Origin: Desulfobacteraceae bacterium
Lineage (GTDB): Bacteria; Desulfobacterota; DSM-4660; Desulfatiglandales; HGW-15
Reading direction: 5' to 3'
DNA: 7,953 nt
Assembly (NCBI GenBank): GCA_003819975.1
Contig: RPPU01000190.1
Coordinates: 1 to 7,953, forward strand
Shown piece by piece: positions 3,522 to 7,953 of this stretch. How positions within the stretch are numbered: the first letter of the stretch is position 1; each line of letters opens with the position of its first letter. The notes beneath the pieces are model-generated. The model was not told the origin of the DNA. It was given only the letters and a program-made list of their open reading frames with translations, and searched no databases. Position numbers and translations under genes: made by a program.

Positions 3522-4625
3522 ATGTCTTATTCGTTCTATCGACAATTGGTCGTTCTTCTTGCCGCTCTGTTGATACTCGGCTGCGACTCTTCGTCAACCG
3601 CCCTGCAAATTGAAAAAAATCTTTCGGGGAAAGGTCTCAAAATCCATGCCAAGGCCCTAAAAGCTATTGATGTCAAACAATATGATCGAGCCGAAGCGTT
3701 GCTCCAAAATCTTTTAAAAGAAATAACGGATAAACTCGGCCAGACCCATCCCCTCCTTGTGGAAGTGAATAAAAACCTGGGCTGGTTGTATTTCAGCCAA
3801 GGACGCTGTTCAGCGGCGAAACATTATTATGAAGAAGCCCTGACAATCAAAGAATCGACCGGGGAACCCGACCGGCCGGAAACGGCTGAACTTTTAACTC
3901 GTTTGGCTGAAGTATACCGGAAAACAGGCCGGTATTCGCCGGCCCAAGCATTCTACCGGCGCGCGCTGGCCGTTATGGAAACAAACTACGGCCCTGAAGA
4001 CCTAAAACTGATTCCCGTGCTCGAAAATTGGGCCCTTTTATACGATCGCCCCGGTTCATACGGAGAAGCCGAAACATTATTCAGAAGAGCCCTTAAAATC
4101 TCTGAAAAAAAGTTTGCTCCGGACGATCCGGAAATAATTCAACTTCAGAATCAGATCGCTTATTTCTGCAATCACGAAGGAAAATATGCCGAAGCGGAAA
4201 AACTATATGAAAAATCTTTACGGGACCTGAAACAAAAAGTTGGTTCCGAACACCCGGATAGTGCCTTGACCCTGAACGGTCTGGCGCTTGTCCGGATATC
4301 GCAGGGCCGCTTTGCTCAAGCGGAACAACTGTTAAACCAATCCCTGGTCATGCTCGAAAAGAGCCTGGGTCCCGATCATATCAAAATCATTCCGGTCCTC
4401 GAGAATATGGAAACCTACTTGTTCATTTATCACCCAGAAAGGGCTCCAGAATTGGAAGCGGTTCACAAGCGGCATCTCGATTTGATTGAAAAAAACTTCG
4501 GGACGAACCATATCGATTATGTCAATGCCCTATATAAATTATCTTTCTTTTACGTCGCCATCCACCTGCCGCAAAAAGCGGAGGAAACCAGCCGACGCGC
4601 CGCGCAAATCGAAGCTTTGCTTTAA
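3522..4625 (+). CDS. TPR-repeat lipoprotein
   Basis: The first 21 residues form a lipoprotein signal peptide: MSYSFYRQ, a hydrophobic core, then the lipobox LILGC with Cys21 as the lipidation site. Asp follows the Cys, which in enteric bacteria would favour retention in the inner membrane; whether that holds here is unknown. The rest of the 367 residues is a solenoid of 42-residue tetratricopeptide repeats of the kinesin-light-chain type. Units begin near residues 80, 122, 164, 206, 248, 290 and 334, preceded by a half unit at 48-73. Typical motifs are GRYSPAQAFYRRALAV and GKYAEAEKLYEKSL. The last two units are degenerate. Such proteins are envelope-anchored scaffolds for protein-protein contacts; no partner is encoded nearby. 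An upstream start at 3489 would add 11 polar residues ahead of the signal peptide, so 3522 is preferred. It converges on the lut genes across a 573-base spacer. Confidence 0.85.
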   Translation: MSYSFYRQLVVLLAALLILGCDSSSTALQIEKNLSGKGLKIHAKALKAIDVKQYDRAEALLQNLLKEITDKLGQTHPLLVEVNKNLGWLYFSQGRCSAAKHYYEEALTIKESTGEPDRPETAELLTRLAEVYRKTGRYSPAQAFYRRALAVMETNYGPEDLKLIPVLENWALLYDRPGSYGEAETLFRRALKISEKKFAPDDPEIIQLQNQIAYFCNHEGKYAEAEKLYEKSLRDLKQKVGSEHPDSALTLNGLALVRISQGRFAQAEQLLNQSLVMLEKSLGPDHIKIIPVLENMETYLFIYHPERAPELEAVHKRHLDLIEKNFGTNHIDYVNALYKLSFFYVAIHLPQKAEETSRRAAQIEALL

Positions 4626-4654
4626 GGGTTTAAACCGGGAATCAAGAGAGGAAG

Positions 4655-4761
4655 AAAAGGATGAAGCATGAAGGCGGAAGGATGAAAAAATCCATTTTTT
4701 TTAATTCTCTCTTTTTCCGTTCCCCCTTATTCGTCCTTTATCCTTCAGCCTTTATCCTTTT
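4655..4761. repeat. Imperfect inverted repeat of GGATGAAG-type sequence
   Basis: The stretch 4655-4685 (AAAAGGATGAAG, then GCATGAAGGCGGAAGGATGA) and the stretch 4734-4761 (TCCTTTATCCTTCAGCC, then TTTATCCTTTT) are imperfect reverse complements flanking a pyrimidine-rich centre. This is one of the text-like low-complexity repeats of the spacer downstream of the TPR gene. It could fold in RNA, but the arms carry many mismatches. Confidence 0.5.
4680..4702 (+). terminator. Weak candidate intrinsic terminator after the TPR lipoprotein gene
   Basis: GGAT (4680-4683) can pair with ATCC (4690-4693) over a six-base loop, followed by A and eight T residues (4695-4702), 54 bases after the stop codon. 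The stem is only four base pairs and AT-rich, so termination would be weak. A longer stem with the surrounding inverted repeat is possible. Confidence 0.3.
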
Positions 4762-4859
4762 CTGCTGAATTCTGACTACTGGCTGCTGTCTTCTATCTCA
4801 TGTAACTGCGAACTCTGAACCTATTTTTTACCAATGTTTTTCTCTGGGTGATTGCATCA

Positions 4860-4931
4860 CTGGAGTAATTTCAGGATCTTTTTGAAATTACGTCCTCTGG
4901 AGTAATTTCGGGATCTTTTTGAAATTACGTC
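4860..4931. repeat. Tandem pair of 35-bp hairpin units
   Basis: Two copies, 4860-4894 and 4897-4931, differ at one base and are separated by two bases. Each begins CTGGAGTAATTTC and ends GAAATTACGTC. Inside each, GTAATTTC pairs perfectly with GAAATTAC around an 11-base loop containing GATCTTTTT. The pair sits between two convergent genes, so it might end transcription or stabilise 3' ends on either strand, but no T-run follows the stem on either strand. Confidence 0.85.
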
Positions 4932-4949
4932 TTTGGCGTCTATCCCGCC

Positions 4950-5036
4950 GTAGGGGCGACCCCCTGCGGCCGCCCATTCTGAGGGCAGGCGCAAGGCACC
5001 GTAGAGACGATTTTATGTCTCTACGCCTGCCCCTAC
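4950..5036. repeat. Palindromic dispersed-repeat element with GTAGGGGC / GCCCCTAC ends
   Basis: The 87-bp element starts GTAGGGGC (4950-4957) and ends GCCCCTAC (5029-5036). GGGCAGGCG (4983-4991) is also complementary to CGCCTGCCC (5024-5032). This resembles the small non-coding palindromic elements scattered in many bacterial genomes. A second palindrome (5000-5025) sits inside it and interrupts the region between GGGCAGGCGCAAGGC and the closing GCCTGCCCC. Confidence 0.65.
5000..5025. repeat. CGTAGAGAC hairpin, first copy
   Basis: CGTAGAGAC (5000-5008) pairs with GTCTCTACG (5017-5025) around an eight-base loop. It belongs to the same family as the hairpins at 5062-5110 and 5167-5192, and lies nested in the GTAGGGGC-bounded element. 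Confidence 0.75.
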
Positions 5037-5061
5037 ACCCTTGACCCCTTGGTCCCTCGAA

Positions 5062-5110
5062 CGTAGAGATATACGCGTAGAGATATTTTATATCTCTACG
5101 GGTCTCTACG
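5062..5110. repeat. Nested CGTAGAGATA hairpins, second and third copies
   Basis: An inner perfect stem, CGTAGAGATA (5076-5085) with TATCTCTACG (5091-5100), has a five-base TTTTA loop. An outer CGTAGAGA (5062-5069) pairs with TCTCTACG (5103-5110). Two copies therefore appear stacked one inside the other. Confidence 0.75.
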
Positions 5111-5166
5111 GACCCCTTGGACCCTATTCTTTAACCCTTGACCCCTTGATCCCTTGGCCCCTTGAA
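5110..5166. repeat. Degenerate CCCTTGA-type tandem run
   Basis: The run reads as variants of one short phrase (GGACCCCTTGGACCC, AACCCTTGACCCCTTGATCCC, TTGGCCCCTTGAAC). The same phrase appears at 5036-5061 and, across the lut fusion gene, at 7551-7588. No coding or regulatory role is evident. Confidence 0.6.
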
Positions 5167-5192
5167 CGTAGAGATATAAAATCATCTCTACG
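5167..5192. repeat. CGTAGAGAT hairpin next to the lutB-lutC stop codon
   Basis: CGTAGAGAT (5167-5175) pairs with ATCTCTACG (5184-5192) around an eight-base loop. It lies six bases beyond the stop codon of the minus-strand fusion gene, where it could act as a 3' end stabiliser or weak terminator. On the minus strand no T-run follows, so it is best called a repeat copy. Confidence 0.7.
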
Positions 5193-5198
5193 GACCCC

Positions 5199-7397
5199 TT
5201 ATTCTTCATAACAAAACACATGCACCTCGGCCGGACCGTGCGCGCCCAGGGTCAGGGTCATCTCGATATCGGCCGTACGCGAGGGCCCGCTCACCATAGC
5301 CACGGCCGAGGCTTGCCGAACAGCAGGAAGCTTTAAAACCTCCGCAAGATTTTCATGAATATCTCTTTCGCATAGCACCGCTAAATGAATCTCCGGCAGT
5401 AAAGATACGGTCAAGGGCTGACCGTGACCGCCGGGAATGATCAGGGTGCCGGTATCGGCGACGGCAGCCGGCGTGCCGGTTAAACCCACGCGGGTTTGGG
5501 AATCCGGTTTCTCCAGTACCTGTACTCCTTTTGCTTTTAAAAAACCGATTAAACCGGTCGGCAATTGTTTTTCCTCCCAGGCCGCGATCGTATCTATTTT
5601 CCTGGTTTTTAGTAACTCAAAAATTCGTTCGCCCAGTTCGCCGGATTTGCAGGTTACGACCTTGCCGTCCAAAGCGGTCCATTCATGGATAAAGCGGTCT
5701 CGCGGAGACCCGGCTTGCGTCAGGATCGGAGAGGAGAAAGTTGGGGGCTCGGAATTTTCGTGCACTTCCTTAGAATCTGCTTTTACATCCGCACTTAAAC
5801 CGGACTTGAACCGGGATCGAAAGGTTGACAGAGCCGGTCGGGGAAAATCTTTGCTAAAACCCCAGCGCGTAAAACCCGGCATGTTAATCCAGGTCGAAAA
5901 AGGAGCTCGGATAAGGCCCAGTAGAAAAAAAGTTTTTTGTGCCCGGCGGAAACGACTTGGGCGGATGCTGGTCCATTTATAAAATTTCAAACCACCTTTA
6001 AGGTAACGGGGTGCATTGGAACGATCTTTATTTTTTAAAAAATCCCCCCTGCCCCCCTTTTCCAAAGGGGGGTAAGAAAGAGAGTTCTTTTCCAAAGAGG
6101 GGTTTTGAAGGGGGGACGATTTCAAAGGGGGGAATCGAAGAGTAGCCGTTCTTTCTCCATCCCCCTTTGTAAAGGGGGACCGAGGGGGATTTGCCGTTGC
6201 ACAGGAGTAATCATTCAAAGAGTCCACATCTCCCGCCCGAACGCGCAGCAACAACTTCGGCAGATCGATATCCACCGGGCAAGCCTCCCGGCAAGCTCCG
6301 CAAAGAGTCGAGGCCCGAGCCAGATGCCCGAATGCCGGCATGCCGAAAAGCACCGGTGCGATCACTGAGCCGATCGGACCCGGATAGATACTGCTTTCTC
6401 CCTGTGGGCTCACATAGGCATGCCCGCCTATTTCGCGGAAAATGGGGCAAACATTTAAACAAGATCCGCAACGAATGCAGTAAAGCGCTTCAACTAAAGG
6501 CGATTGACGCAGGCGGCCGCGGCCGTTATCCAAAATAACGATATGCCGTTCGAGCGGCCCATCCGGATCATCCGGCTGCTTGGGACGATTCATTAAGCTG
6601 ACATAGACCGAGATCTTCTGGCGTGACGCTGCCCGCGGCAGCAAAGACAACATCAAGGCCAAATCCTCCATGGTGCGCACCAAACGTTCCATGCCCATTA
6701 AAGCGATATGCACGGGCGGCAGGGTTGTGACCATGCGACCGTTGCCCTCATTGGTCACGAGACAGAGCGTACCGGTCTCGGCCACGGCAAAGTTCACGCC
6801 GGAAATGCCGATGTCCGCTTTAAGAAAAATTTCCCGCAAAGTTTTGCGGGCCCATCCCACCATAACCGGGACATCTTGGGTCCGGGGCATGCCCAATTTC
6901 TCATGAAAAAGTTCAGCCACTTCCGTTCGATTCAGATGAACGGCCGGCGCGATAATATGCGAAGGGGTTTCCCCGCGCAACTGCACAATATATTCGCCCA
7001 GATCGGTTTCCTTCACATCGATTCCGGCTGCTTCCAGGGCCTGATTCAACTTGATTTCCTCGCTCACCATGCTCTTGCCCTTGGCGATTCGTTTGGCATG
7101 GTGCCGGCGGGCGATCTCCAGCACTGTTTGCGCGGCTTGGGCGCCGTCTTGGGCCCGATGAACAATGAAACCATTTTGCCGTGCCTGGGCAATAAACCGA
7201 TCGAGATAGGAATCGAGACCGGCAATCACCTCCGCCCGGAGATCATGCGCCCGTTGACGGCGTTCCTGATAATCGGGCAATGAAGCAAAAGCCTTGTCGC
7301 GCAAACGGAATTGTTTCTCCGTAAACGCGTCCAGGGCGGCCCTTAAAATGGGATTGCCGAGAGACTCTTTGATTTTCTTTCTGAATGTGTCGGTCAT
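5199..7397 (-). CDS. LutB-LutC fusion: LUD / iron-sulfur lactate oxidation protein
   Basis: This 732-residue protein joins two subunits of the LutABC (LldEFG) L-lactate oxidation complex, which passes electrons from lactate to the respiratory chain. Residues 1-300 are the LutB-type LUD domain, with AETGTLCLVTNEGNGR (206-221) and LPPVHIALMGMERLV (226-240). An iron-sulfur module follows: CIRCGSCLNVCP (C307, C310, C313, C317) and CGACREACPVDIDLP (C366, C369, C373). Residues about 470-530 resemble the LutB tail. From about 566 to the end is a second, LutC-type LUD domain, with ADTGTLIIPGGHGQPLTVSLLPEIHLAVL (647-675 region). Residues 402-453 are not native: they are the translation of an in-frame palindromic DNA repeat (6040-6192). 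Residues 532-565 form a low-conservation linker. GAGGA just before the ATG supports the start. lutA lies 141 bases upstream on the same strand. Confidence 0.9.
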   Translation of the reverse strand: MTDTFRKKIKESLGNPILRAALDAFTEKQFRLRDKAFASLPDYQERRQRAHDLRAEVIAGLDSYLDRFIAQARQNGFIVHRAQDGAQAAQTVLEIARRHHAKRIAKGKSMVSEEIKLNQALEAAGIDVKETDLGEYIVQLRGETPSHIIAPAVHLNRTEVAELFHEKLGMPRTQDVPVMVGWARKTLREIFLKADIGISGVNFAVAETGTLCLVTNEGNGRMVTTLPPVHIALMGMERLVRTMEDLALMLSLLPRAASRQKISVYVSLMNRPKQPDDPDGPLERHIVILDNGRGRLRQSPLVEALYCIRCGSCLNVCPIFREIGGHAYVSPQGESSIYPGPIGSVIAPVLFGMPAFGHLARASTLCGACREACPVDIDLPKLLLRVRAGDVDSLNDYSCATANPPRSPFTKGDGERTATLRFPPLKSSPLQNPSLEKNSLSYPPLEKGGRGDFLKNKDRSNAPRYLKGGLKFYKWTSIRPSRFRRAQKTFFLLGLIRAPFSTWINMPGFTRWGFSKDFPRPALSTFRSRFKSGLSADVKADSKEVHENSEPPTFSSPILTQAGSPRDRFIHEWTALDGKVVTCKSGELGERIFELLKTRKIDTIAAWEEKQLPTGLIGFLKAKGVQVLEKPDSQTRVGLTGTPAAVADTGTLIIPGGHGQPLTVSLLPEIHLAVLCERDIHENLAEVLKLPAVRQASAVAMVSGPSRTADIEMTLTLGAHGPAEVHVFCYEE
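6040..6192. repeat. 153-bp palindromic repeat inserted in-frame in the lutB-lutC gene
   Basis: The element begins AAATCCCCCC and ends GGGGGATTT. Its two ends, 6040-6071 and 6161-6192, are near-perfect inverted copies of about 32 bp. Each contains its own small hairpin: CCCCCTTT, a few bases, then AAAGGGGG. The middle has further AAAGGGG and TTTGAAGGGGGG blocks. 153 is divisible by three, and the minus-strand frame has no stop. It encodes NPPRSPFTKG at one end and PPLEKGGRGDF at the other, a translation style typical of dispersed bacterial repeats read in a coding frame. The exact borders could be off by a few bases. No target-site duplication was found by eye. Confidence 0.85.
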
Positions 7398-7411
7398 TTT
7401 TATTCCTCAAA

Positions 7412-7465
7412 GTTACAGAAACCGAAAAGGATGTAACGGCTTAAGTCGTGAGGCTCACGGTTACA
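7412..7465. promoter_or_regulatory. Three GTTACA hexamers ahead of the lutB-lutC gene
   Basis: GTTACA occurs at 7412-7417 and 7460-7465, and its complement TGTAAC at 7432-7437, giving two inverted pairs. CGTGAGGCTCACG (7447-7459), a near-perfect palindrome, lies between the last two. This is 15-70 bases upstream of the minus-strand start codon, where an operator or leader structure would be expected. The words GTTAC and CGTGA also recur in text-like repeats of this genome style, so it may be only repeat sequence. Confidence 0.3.
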
Positions 7466-7502
7466 AAAGACAGCAGAAAAAAAGTCAGCAGTCAGAATCA
7501 TC

Positions 7503-7542
7503 GTTCTTACGTTCTTACGTTCTTACGTTCTCACATTCTCAC
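7503..7542. repeat. Five tandem 8-bp repeats (GTTCTTAC) ending in the lutA stop codon
   Basis: Three perfect GTTCTTAC units are followed by GTTCTCAC and ATTCTCAC, directly adjoining. The last unit holds the TGA stop (7539-7541 on the minus strand) of lutA. The preceding bases (7466-7500) are AGTCAGCAG-type low-complexity sequence. Confidence 0.85.
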
Positions 7543-7953
7543 GTCGGTTTAACCCTTGACCCCTCGACCCCCTCGACCCCTTGAACCCTGCTCTCCAGTA
7601 TTTGTGCGATATGCACGGCTCTTTGTTTTTTGCCCTGCCGGTGCAGACCGCCGTTGATCTGGGTCAGACAGCCGGCATCGCAGGCCACGACCGTGTCGGC
7701 GCCGCCGGCTTCAATGGCGGCGATCTTACGATCCAACAGGGCGGCCGAGAGTTCGGGATGTTCGACGGAGAACACGCCGCCGAAACCGCAACACTCCCGG
7801 GTTCCGGCTAATTCGACGATCCGGGCGCCCCGCACATGGGCCAATAAAAGCCTGGGTTGCCGGTCCACTCCCAGCATGCGTAATAAATGACAGGAGGAAT
7901 GATACGTCAGCAAGCCGTCGAATTGCGCGCCCACATCGACGATGCCGAGTCGG
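7539..7953 (-). CDS. lutA: LutA (LldE)-type Fe-S subunit, C-terminal part (partial)
   Basis: The frame enters from the right edge and ends at TGA 7539-7541; the 5' part is outside the window. It shows the second CCG domain of the LutA/LldE/GlpC-like cysteine-rich family. YHSSCHLLR precedes LLLAHVRGARIVELA, then ECCGFGGVFSVEHPELS, then VVACDAGCLTQINGGLHRQG and VHIAQILES. These cysteines bind an iron-sulfur centre in the complex that oxidises L-lactate to pyruvate with LutB and LutC. RLGIVDVGAQFDG continues upstream of an internal GTG at 7934, as in full-length family members, so that GTG is not a start. The last residues, RVQGVEGVEGSRVKPT, are not family sequence: they are read from the CCCTCGA/CCCTTGA tandem repeat at 7551-7588, so the original stop seems to have been lost. 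The fusion gene follows after 141 bases. Confidence 0.9.
   Translation of the reverse strand, partial: RLGIVDVGAQFDGLLTYHSSCHLLRMLGVDRQPRLLLAHVRGARIVELAGTRECCGFGGVFSVEHPELSAALLDRKIAAIEAGGADTVVACDAGCLTQINGGLHRQGKKQRAVHIAQILESRVQGVEGVEGSRVKPT
7551..7588. repeat. CCCTTGA/CCCTCGA tandem run inside the lutA 3' end
   Basis: Short units AACCCTTGA, CCCCTCGA, CCCCCTCGA, CCCCTTGA and ACCCT follow one another. They are coding on the minus strand as the VEGVEG-containing tail of LutA. The same phrase occurs in the spacer at 5036-5061 and 5110-5166. Confidence 0.7.

Follow-up and report, generated by a model that had tools for sequence, protein, structure and literature searches.

A palindromic DNA element of 153 bp is read in frame within a lutB-lutC fusion gene in a 7,953-nucleotide stretch of DNA from a Desulfobacteraceae bacterium (contig RPPU01000190.1), hereafter called the window. 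We consider it probable that this element is a palindromic repeat similar to REPINs (REP doublets forming hairpins; REP, repetitive extragenic palindrome) or BIMEs (bacterial interspersed mosaic elements), which arrived in frame a single time, in an ancestor, and has been tolerated as a disordered loop at a site where repeats of several families accumulate. The evidence comes from the structure of the element and its reading frame, from the relatives that share it, from a predicted protein structure, and from related and unrelated repeats in other genomes.

Structure of the element and of the gene that carries it

The features of the element and of its gene are the following.

6040..6192, unstranded: palindromic element of 153 bp, read in frame, codons 402-453
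6040..6071, plus strand: left inverted arm, 32 nt, 26 of 32 positions complementary to the right arm
6161..6192, plus strand: right inverted arm, 32 nt, partner of the left arm
6052..6072, unstranded: end hairpin with a perfect 9-bp stem, CCCCCCTTT/AAAGGGGGG, encoding PPLEKGG
6160..6179, unstranded: end hairpin with a perfect 9-bp stem, TCCCCCTTT/AAAGGGGGA, encoding SPFTKGD
6057..6146, unstranded: three imperfect 30-nt direct repeats (half-hairpin units; 100, 70 and 63%), a large part of the element
5199..7397, minus strand: lutB-lutC fusion open reading frame (ORF) of 732 aa, with a LUD domain, a 4Fe-4S module, the LutB C-terminal helices and a second LUD domain (LutC)
6267..6488, minus strand: 4Fe-4S dicluster module, residues 304-377, upstream of the insert, with cysteines 307, 310, 313, 317, 366, 369 and 373
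5907..6008, minus strand: LutB C-terminal helices, residues 464-497 in the predicted model, downstream of the insert (counterparts at 404-437 in the relative P0005)

The two arms (6040-6071 and 6161-6192) are 81% complementary and separated by 89 nt. The element begins at the third base of codon 402 and ends at the second of codon 453, which amounts to 51 codons' worth, and the ORF at 5199-7397 crosses it without stop or frameshift. The first-pass annotation had described a 153-bp element with inverted ends of about 32 nt, each a hairpin, inserted in frame and adding about 51 residues; the 26 paired positions of the arms, the 9-bp stems and the reading of the ORF bear this description out. Within the window, the words of the outer arms and stems are confined to these 153 bp.

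As a control for chance, the insert peptide was recoded 20,000 times with random synonymous codons, drawn according to the ORF's own codon usage. Both stems were retained in 0.005% of the recodings, and none of the 20,000 reached the 26 of 32 paired arm positions (mean 14.8, maximum 23). Since synonymous recodings almost never keep the stems and never the arms, the palindrome is carried by the DNA and is not forced by the peptide. The folding energy of the whole segment was mildly unusual (z = -2.00 as DNA, -1.96 as RNA), and folding prediction indicated that the single-stranded element, including the mRNA, can form one long stem. A search of positions 4600-7953 against Rfam gave nothing above a family threshold; five hits with E of at most 1, each to a microRNA family and far below its gathering score, were taken as chance. 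Comparison of the insert DNA with plasmid records yielded six matches at 12-22% coverage, none of them credible. Inspection of the element flanks by eye revealed no clear target-site duplication, and no empty site close enough for comparison.

In a profile search, the 732-aa protein matched LUD_dom over two stretches (E 4.4e-74), and also Fer4_8. It passed the curated score of TIGR00273, the LutB/LldF iron-sulfur protein (450.7 bits for a cut-off of 444.8), and missed that of LdhH (NF045670; 438.4 versus 800 bits). The seven cysteines, which we take to belong to two Fe-S motifs, were confirmed by direct reading, and the protein keeps all columns that are invariant in 75 aligned sequences, though by construction. 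By our reading of the predicted model, the segment that follows the insert (helices 464-497) would be LutB's own C-terminal part, and the opening helix of the LutC LUD domain is predicted only at residue 565. For these two reasons the insert does not appear to sit at the LutB/LutC junction, where it had been placed initially; it lies inside LutB, between the Fe-S module and the C-terminal helices. The lutB-lutC gene looks intact, judging from its sequence and its predicted fold. That the insertion damaged it, the ORF being a recent or decaying pseudogene, is very unlikely: 732 codons are open, the motif cysteines and the invariant columns are kept, and two relatives at about 60% identity are full-length with the insert.

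The insert is shared by a clade of three proteins

Homologues of the window protein (P0001) were taken as the 119 best of 7,995 matches. Among these, the two closest are P0002 (730 aa, 62% identity) and P0003 (751 aa, 59%), and both carry a diverged version of the insert at the same place (NPPQSPFEKGE...IKGGRGDF and NPPQSPFAKGE...IKGGRGDL, respectively). The insert signature was unmatched in the other 117. A conserved domain was rejected as the identity of the insert. A peptide search with residues 401-455 returned the query alone among 5 candidates; it is uninformative on rarity, because it failed to recover even P0002 and P0003. When the linker is left out, the identity of P0001 to P0002 and P0003 is 64% and 63%, and that between the latter two is 77%. 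A tree of 200 sequences, made from 586 columns with the loops masked, grouped the three proteins in one clade (support 0.999) as each other's closest relatives, with distances of 0.64 substitutions per site between P0001 and P0002, and 0.29 between P0002 and P0003. An assembly or chimera artefact, to which repeats are prone through misassembly, is extremely unlikely, as P0002 (jgi) and P0003 (ena), from other sources, have the family at the same place.

The linker measures 77, 75 and 96 residues in P0001, P0002 and P0003, 16-57 in the 117 database homologues, and 11-41 in 80 loci described below. Without the 51 residues, the linker of the window protein would have 26, a length within the span of the remaining 197 sequences (11-57). 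The linker is thus hypervariable, and the initial statement that relatives continue without interruption at this position was too simple; two of them have the insert too.

Did the three proteins gain their inserts independently, the linker being a preferred target, hit repeatedly in the same frame? The distance between the RAG and NPP motifs differs among P0001-P0003 (about 13, 15 and 2 residues), the stems of P0001 look fresh, and several repeat families occur in the linker. However, the three proteins are each other's closest relatives, with 0.999 support, and their inserts have internal motifs in common, such as LEKNS/LEKTS. A single insertion is simpler on both counts, and we regard independent gains as unlikely; copies of a comparable unit point the same way (see below).

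The insert is predicted to form a disordered loop

In an AlphaFold2 model of the window protein, much of both LUD domains exceeded a predicted local distance difference test (pLDDT) value of 90. Residues 411-457, which cover most of the insert, were below 50 and had no secondary structure. As a control, the insert-free relative P0005 was modelled with the same 75 sequences. The mean pLDDT of the P0005 and window models was near-equal (78.7 and 78.6), and the order of structural elements was nearly identical, apart from an added short, low-confidence helix at 393-399 in the window model and a few differing strands near the C-terminus. The shorter linker of P0005 (390-403) was likewise below 50, and the Fe-S region was of partly low confidence in both models, with and without the insert. 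The first-pass annotation had hesitated between a tolerated loop and an impairment of electron transfer. Because the insert is mostly below 50 and its flanking elements closely match the insert-free control, we favour, on the basis of these models, a disordered loop that is tolerated; given the low confidence in the Fe-S region, the models carry no weight for or against weaker electron transfer.

The repeat family is found mostly outside genes in other genomes

The pattern TCCCCC-N5-CCCCCTTT-N3-AAAGGGGG, with up to 2 mismatches, was scanned in 400 Chloroflexota genomes. It was found at 28 places in 8 genomes, compared to 7 places in 2 genomes for the reversed control. Twenty stretches, covering 27 of the 28 places (the G387 place was excluded), were read for ORFs of at least 120 aa, chosen by length: 20 places lay outside ORFs, one across an ORF end, and 6 inside five ORFs. 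The Pfam check covered two of these five (in loci L109 and L104); those of L091, L093 and L094 may be wrong ORFs or starts. Family units were either single (AAATCCCCCTTAGTCCCCCTTTnnnAAAGGGGGA) or formed inverted pairs of the type AAATCCC...GGGATTT, of 47 bp (L105), 48 bp (L109), 71 bp (L106), 160 bp (L103) and 220 bp (L104). No GTAG/CGTC tetranucleotide was seen at the unit ends (AAATCCCCC / AAAGGGGGA). Of 7 family-bearing genomes searched, two had a Y1 transposase domain (PF01797), at three loci in total, each lacking a unit within about 1.5 kb. In L104, a unit directly follows a DUF559 domain ending at residue 118. At a contig end (L107 1-400, G179:C8), CCCCCTTT...AAAGGGGG units are dense in both orientations, possibly by amplification or misassembly.

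The two L109 places together make up a single pair that is read in frame within a DNA methylase ORF (PF01555, residues 94-411; KSPSNPPLLKGEVGGF from residue 424), where the insert corresponds to additional residues relative to the best homologue, L247. As this pair is read in another frame than the window element, the repeated unit is the DNA and not the peptide. This bears on the proposal that the insert is a functional peptide, for instance a linker for docking or for flexible spacing. By hand count, the three proteins resemble each other in the ends NPPxSPFxKG and KGGRGD about as much as in their catalytic domains, within a linker whose remainder is difficult to align. Nevertheless, the differing frame of the methylase copy, the 117 of 119 listed homologues that lack a match, the predicted disorder, and the fact that the variable residue of SPFxKG (T, E or A) is encoded by the codon of the hairpin loop, make such a function quite improbable.

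Three loops of LutB-LutC proteins carry unrelated repeats

LutBC was studied in 80 loci, kept from 118 relatives that were confirmed in the genome scan. Their titles name Chloroflexi, Anaerolineae or genera, and we take these genera to be Chloroflexota. A first pass with regular expressions covered only 22 of the 80 loci, and an alignment of the linkers of all 80 was used instead; linker DNA was read for the 46 longest. Repeat types were assigned by eye, and rule-based detection was applied to hairpins and heptads alone.

In these sequences, three loops, namely the linker of the window insert (linker 1), linker 2, and a loop near residue 97, seem to hold at least 6 unrelated repeat types. The insert is therefore not the singular case it had been thought to be: it is common to a clade, and repeats occur in two more loops of the protein family besides its linker. 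At its position in other loci, hairpins of the CCCTCTCCC...GGGAGAGGG type were found (L008, L016 and L068, for instance), and linker 1 also held the hairpin GTAGAGACGTCCC...GGGACGTCTCTAC in L009, a CCCTAAAGGTTTC hairpin in L024, and heptad arrays of the CAGTnAT, GACGGTG and CCAATTA types (e.g. L050, L033 and L022). Peptide signatures, self-made and incomplete (L008 was missed, for example), scored 13 cases of the CCTCTCCC type among 200 sequences, 7, 8 and 3 for the three heptad types, and 3 for the window family. In L007, from residue 488, two nearby CCCTCCCCAACGG...CCGTTGGGGAGGG hairpins in linker 2 give a repeated YPPQRK peptide. The LutBC ORF of L004 (from position 5000) has 473 residues while its match to the query continues to the query end, so that this copy is interrupted or misassembled.

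Hairpins with stems of at least 9 bp were then counted in 81 LutBC ORFs. Linker 1 contained 7 in 5.3 kb, two of them being the window's own, and linker 2 contained 11 in 10.2 kb, which corresponds to densities of 1.32 and 1.08 per kb. The domains held 11, 1 and 4 hairpins in 95.8, 17.3 and 34.8 kb (0.06-0.12 per kb), with one further upstream, and 9 of the 11 first-domain hairpins fell in the single loop near residue 97. Codon-shuffled ORFs gave a mean of 3.4 hairpins for the whole set. Across the 80 loci, hairpin density was 0.91 per kb in intergenic DNA, 0.20 in LutBC and 0.083 in other genes, which had 46 hairpins compared to 17 after codon shuffling. One of these 46 belonged to the named families, a biased control, since the families were named after LutBC had been seen.

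Loop 97, in the first LUD domain, harbours unrelated repeat families in L005, L004, L040, L058, L065, L025, L023, L044, L080 and L051. Its DNA was read for overlapping sets of 9, 19 and 8 loci, not for all 67 of the 80 loci in which it exceeds 9 residues (11 of 120 database proteins do so). In one clade of 19, the loop is short in 4 and has inserts in 15, of at least 5 kinds by eye.

Relation of the loop repeats to intergenic repeats of the same genome

The palindrome ACTCCAACGTCTnnAGACGTTGGAGT, allowing up to 3 mismatches, was found in all 6 carrier genomes (L053 being a variant), at 2-12 places each, a number that may include the LutBC copy, versus 1 of 11 non-carriers. For a 63-nt two-hairpin unit, four more near-full-length copies (78-80%) were recovered outside LutBC, in 3 of 6 genomes (G416, G013 and G424). 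A GTAGGGGCG pattern was positive in 14 of 17 genomes: four carriers had 15, 14, 34 and 3 forward places, for 0-2 per strand in the controls, and several non-carriers had it also (up to 9 places). The CCCTCTCCC pattern was non-discriminating: 20 of 20 genomes were positive, and in one of them the control reached as many as 31 places per strand.

A word test was also performed on samples of about 400 kb from each of 5 genomes. Own intergenic 13-mers covered 16.7% of loop 97, 30.2% of linker 1 and 12.3% of linker 2, as compared to 3.05% of the LutBC core and 3.62% of other genes. For 15-mers, the values were 0%, 13.1% and 10.1% in the three loops, 0.18% in the core and 0.76% in other genes. Intergenic 13-mers of another genome covered 0% of loop 97, 3.7% of linker 2, 2.4% of the core and 2.6% of other genes.

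Possible conservation of the loop repeats as DNA

Loop 97 permits a comparison of inserts with their surrounding genes. Between L023 and L080, 2 of the 72 bases of the loop differ, both non-synonymously, for a core identity of 87% overall and 70% at four-fold sites. Between L023 and L044, 9 of 72 differ (88% identity; 5 non-synonymous and 3 synonymous codon changes), for a core at 80% overall and 52% at four-fold sites, and the stem is preserved by a two-sided swap of T-A to A-T (ACTCC...GGAGT in L023, ACACC...GGTGT in L044). In the pair L004 and L058, the loop is 85% identical and the four-fold sites 50%, with differences placed symmetrically within a perfect palindrome. The L057 copy is more diverged (64-72%, ungapped, with the register shifted), which counts against strict conservation. 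These few cases would fit a common origin with constraint, transfer, or the repeated arrival of one variant.

Relative to the L023 unit, the LutBC copies show 100% identity in G415, 97% in G424 and 94% in G418. Other full-length copies of this unit were limited to two in G424, at 78%; G415 and G418 had none, only partial matches. This argues against simple homogenisation within the genome. It also indicates a common origin of the LutBC copies, not a repeated arrival from within the genome, and by comparison speaks against independent gains of the window insert.

Could the insert have been selected as a DNA or RNA signal (mRNA structure, attenuation or protein binding), with the peptide as a by-product? 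Both stems are perfect, which 0.005% of recodings achieve, although the insert clade has diverged to about 63% outside the linker; the 72-nt loop of L023 and L044, with its 88% identity against 80% in the core and 52% at four-fold sites and its stem-keeping swap, behaves likewise; and the insert is able to fold as one long mRNA stem. Against this, one and the same site is occupied in turn by unrelated families, which is not expected of one conserved signal, the L057 copy is diverged, z is only about -2, and no Rfam match passed its threshold. We find a signal of this kind unlikely, about as much so as independent gains.

Proposed origin of the insert, and points against it

The probable reading, a single ancestral arrival followed by tolerance, can be detailed as follows. 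The element would be an inverted pair of short palindromic units (about AAAT-CCCCCT-NNN-TCCCCCTTT-loop-AAAGGGGGA), with half-units between them. It would have arrived, keeping the frame, in the linker that separates the Fe-S module from the LutB C-terminal helices; the simplest assumption is a single event, in an ancestor shared by at least three known proteins. Translated into a disordered loop, it would be tolerated because linker 1, like linker 2 and loop 97, is presumably under little functional constraint. More generally, repeats may enter genes genome-wide, most being lost, and disordered linkers would accept those that keep the frame. As the same loops gather other families in relatives, the event in the window would be one case of a general turnover of repeats at permissive loops, and such a filter would account for the concentration in loops, the variety of families, the near-intergenic hairpin density and the intact domains. 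The element would then be mobile, the protein made and active, and the retention of the insert neutral.

Several observations weigh against this scheme. The family was detected in just 8 of the 400 genomes, one of them, G387, possibly by chance (one place, 2 mismatches); its dispersal, documented in other genomes, is putative in the host, and none of 20 LutBC-bearing genomes matched the fuller unit pattern at up to 3 mismatches. Linker 1 was nearly as enriched when the words came from intergenic DNA of a different genome (25.2% and 12.8%), owing to shared heptad repeats. A cross-locus 12-mer test gave no clear loop enrichment, and with own-genome 12-mers having at least 4 intergenic copies, only linker 2 of L050 was positive among the five genomes (25 of 627 linker-2 bases). 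Finally, plain neutral ageing does not easily account for stems that remain perfect over a divergence of about 0.64 substitutions per site; they would call for renewal or a role of the nucleic acid, beyond the mechanism of a tolerated loop.

A bolder proposal is that the three LutB-LutC loops are landing sites internal to the gene, where unrelated repeats, among them several hairpin families and heptad arrays, are inserted, exchanged and kept as DNA, with stems that remain paired, in some cases by two-sided changes, while synonymous sites approach saturation, the window insert being among the longest. We see this as possible, and rather less probable than not being so. If true, protein loops would be a long-term refuge for repeat DNA.

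Other features of the window

The gene upstream of lutBC is cut by the window end:

7539..7952, minus strand: LutA-like cysteine-rich partner gene (CCG, PF02754)

The C-terminal tail of the LutA-like protein (SRVQGVEGVEGSRVKPT, at 7539-7600) is encoded by an array of the GGGGTCGAGGGGGTCGA heptad type, and is a second repeat-derived peptide beside lutBC. An array of the octamer CGTTCTTACGTTCTTACGTTCTCA occupies 7502-7541, between lutBC and lutA. On the other side, between the tetratricopeptide repeat (TPR) gene and lutBC, two direct 35-nt copies, 97% identical and each palindromic by eye (GTAATTTC...GAAATTAC), lie at 4860-4931, and an inverted repeat (37 nt, 78% complementary) is found at 4653-4763, immediately downstream of the TPR gene. 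Inverted intergenic copies of a GTAGAGAC...GTCTCTAC-type hairpin are at 4999-5025 and 5167-5193, and also at 5085-5100; a similar one is present in the LutBC linker 1 of L009. A decarboxylase dependent on pyridoxal phosphate (609-1958) has three database relatives at 88-92%, the next being at 74%, and probably comes from an uncultured lineage; its named relatives are mixed (Desulfobacterales, Deltaproteobacteria, Anaerolineae and Chloroflexota).

Comparison with known systems

The window protein shares with the LutB/LldF-LutC fusions of Chloroflexota-type bacteria its domain order, its cysteines and the LutA-like neighbour gene. It differs from them by its CCCCCTTT-family insert, which occurs elsewhere in 2 of the 119 proteins listed, the best of 7,995 matches. 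Word matching in open-access full texts turned up no publication about repeats in LutB-LutC or about the repeat family of the window, which is weak evidence of absence.

Miniature inverted-repeat transposable elements (MITEs) are presented, in a portion of PMC3733652, as elements of 70-300 bp with terminal inverted repeats and no coding capacity of their own. The window element also has terminal inverted repeats, but a target-site duplication or a parent insertion sequence would be hypothetical for it. REPINs, according to a section of PMC8049555, consist of two inverted REPs and a spacer, and are duplicated by REP-associated tyrosine transposases (RAYTs). Like REPs, BIMEs and REPINs as portrayed in these excerpts, the window family is made of short hairpin units, single or in inverted pairs around a variable spacer, and intragenic cases of the former are known. 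Unlike them, it has no GTAG/CGTC tag, and no Y1 transposase flanked by units was found in 7 family-bearing genomes. Part of PMC3733652 reports that recB of two Xanthomonas species carries different REPs at about the same site, and suggests that an insertion that falls in a loop or linker may be neutral.

In-frame palindromes have been treated, in passages of PMC10969869 and PMC3733652, as an odd source of new protein segments in Rickettsia, with scattered intragenic REPs in other bacteria. One ordinary metabolic enzyme now offers many natural replicates, with three loops, inserts present or not, and families that differ from genome to genome. It thus becomes testable whether repeats arrive at random before selection filters them, whether it is the DNA or the protein that is maintained, and how fast repeat-derived peptides are exchanged. 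A caution also follows: what is read as a 'linker' in such proteins can be repeat DNA, and should not be taken for a conserved motif.

The Rickettsia palindromic elements themselves, of about 150 bp, lie in and between genes and are found in frame in likely functional proteins, as set out in parts of the same two articles. The DNA family of the window is a different one, the host is no Rickettsia to judge from the relatives, the loop is used by several unrelated families, and the window element ends without the CGTC tag that an excerpt of PMC3733652 gives for R. conorii units. The likeness proposed at the outset, with a distinct DNA family, is nonetheless supported: in both systems a palindrome is read in frame in a gene that looks functional from its sequence, and the family also resides outside genes (in other genomes, 21 of the 27 places read were not inside an ORF of at least 120 aa).

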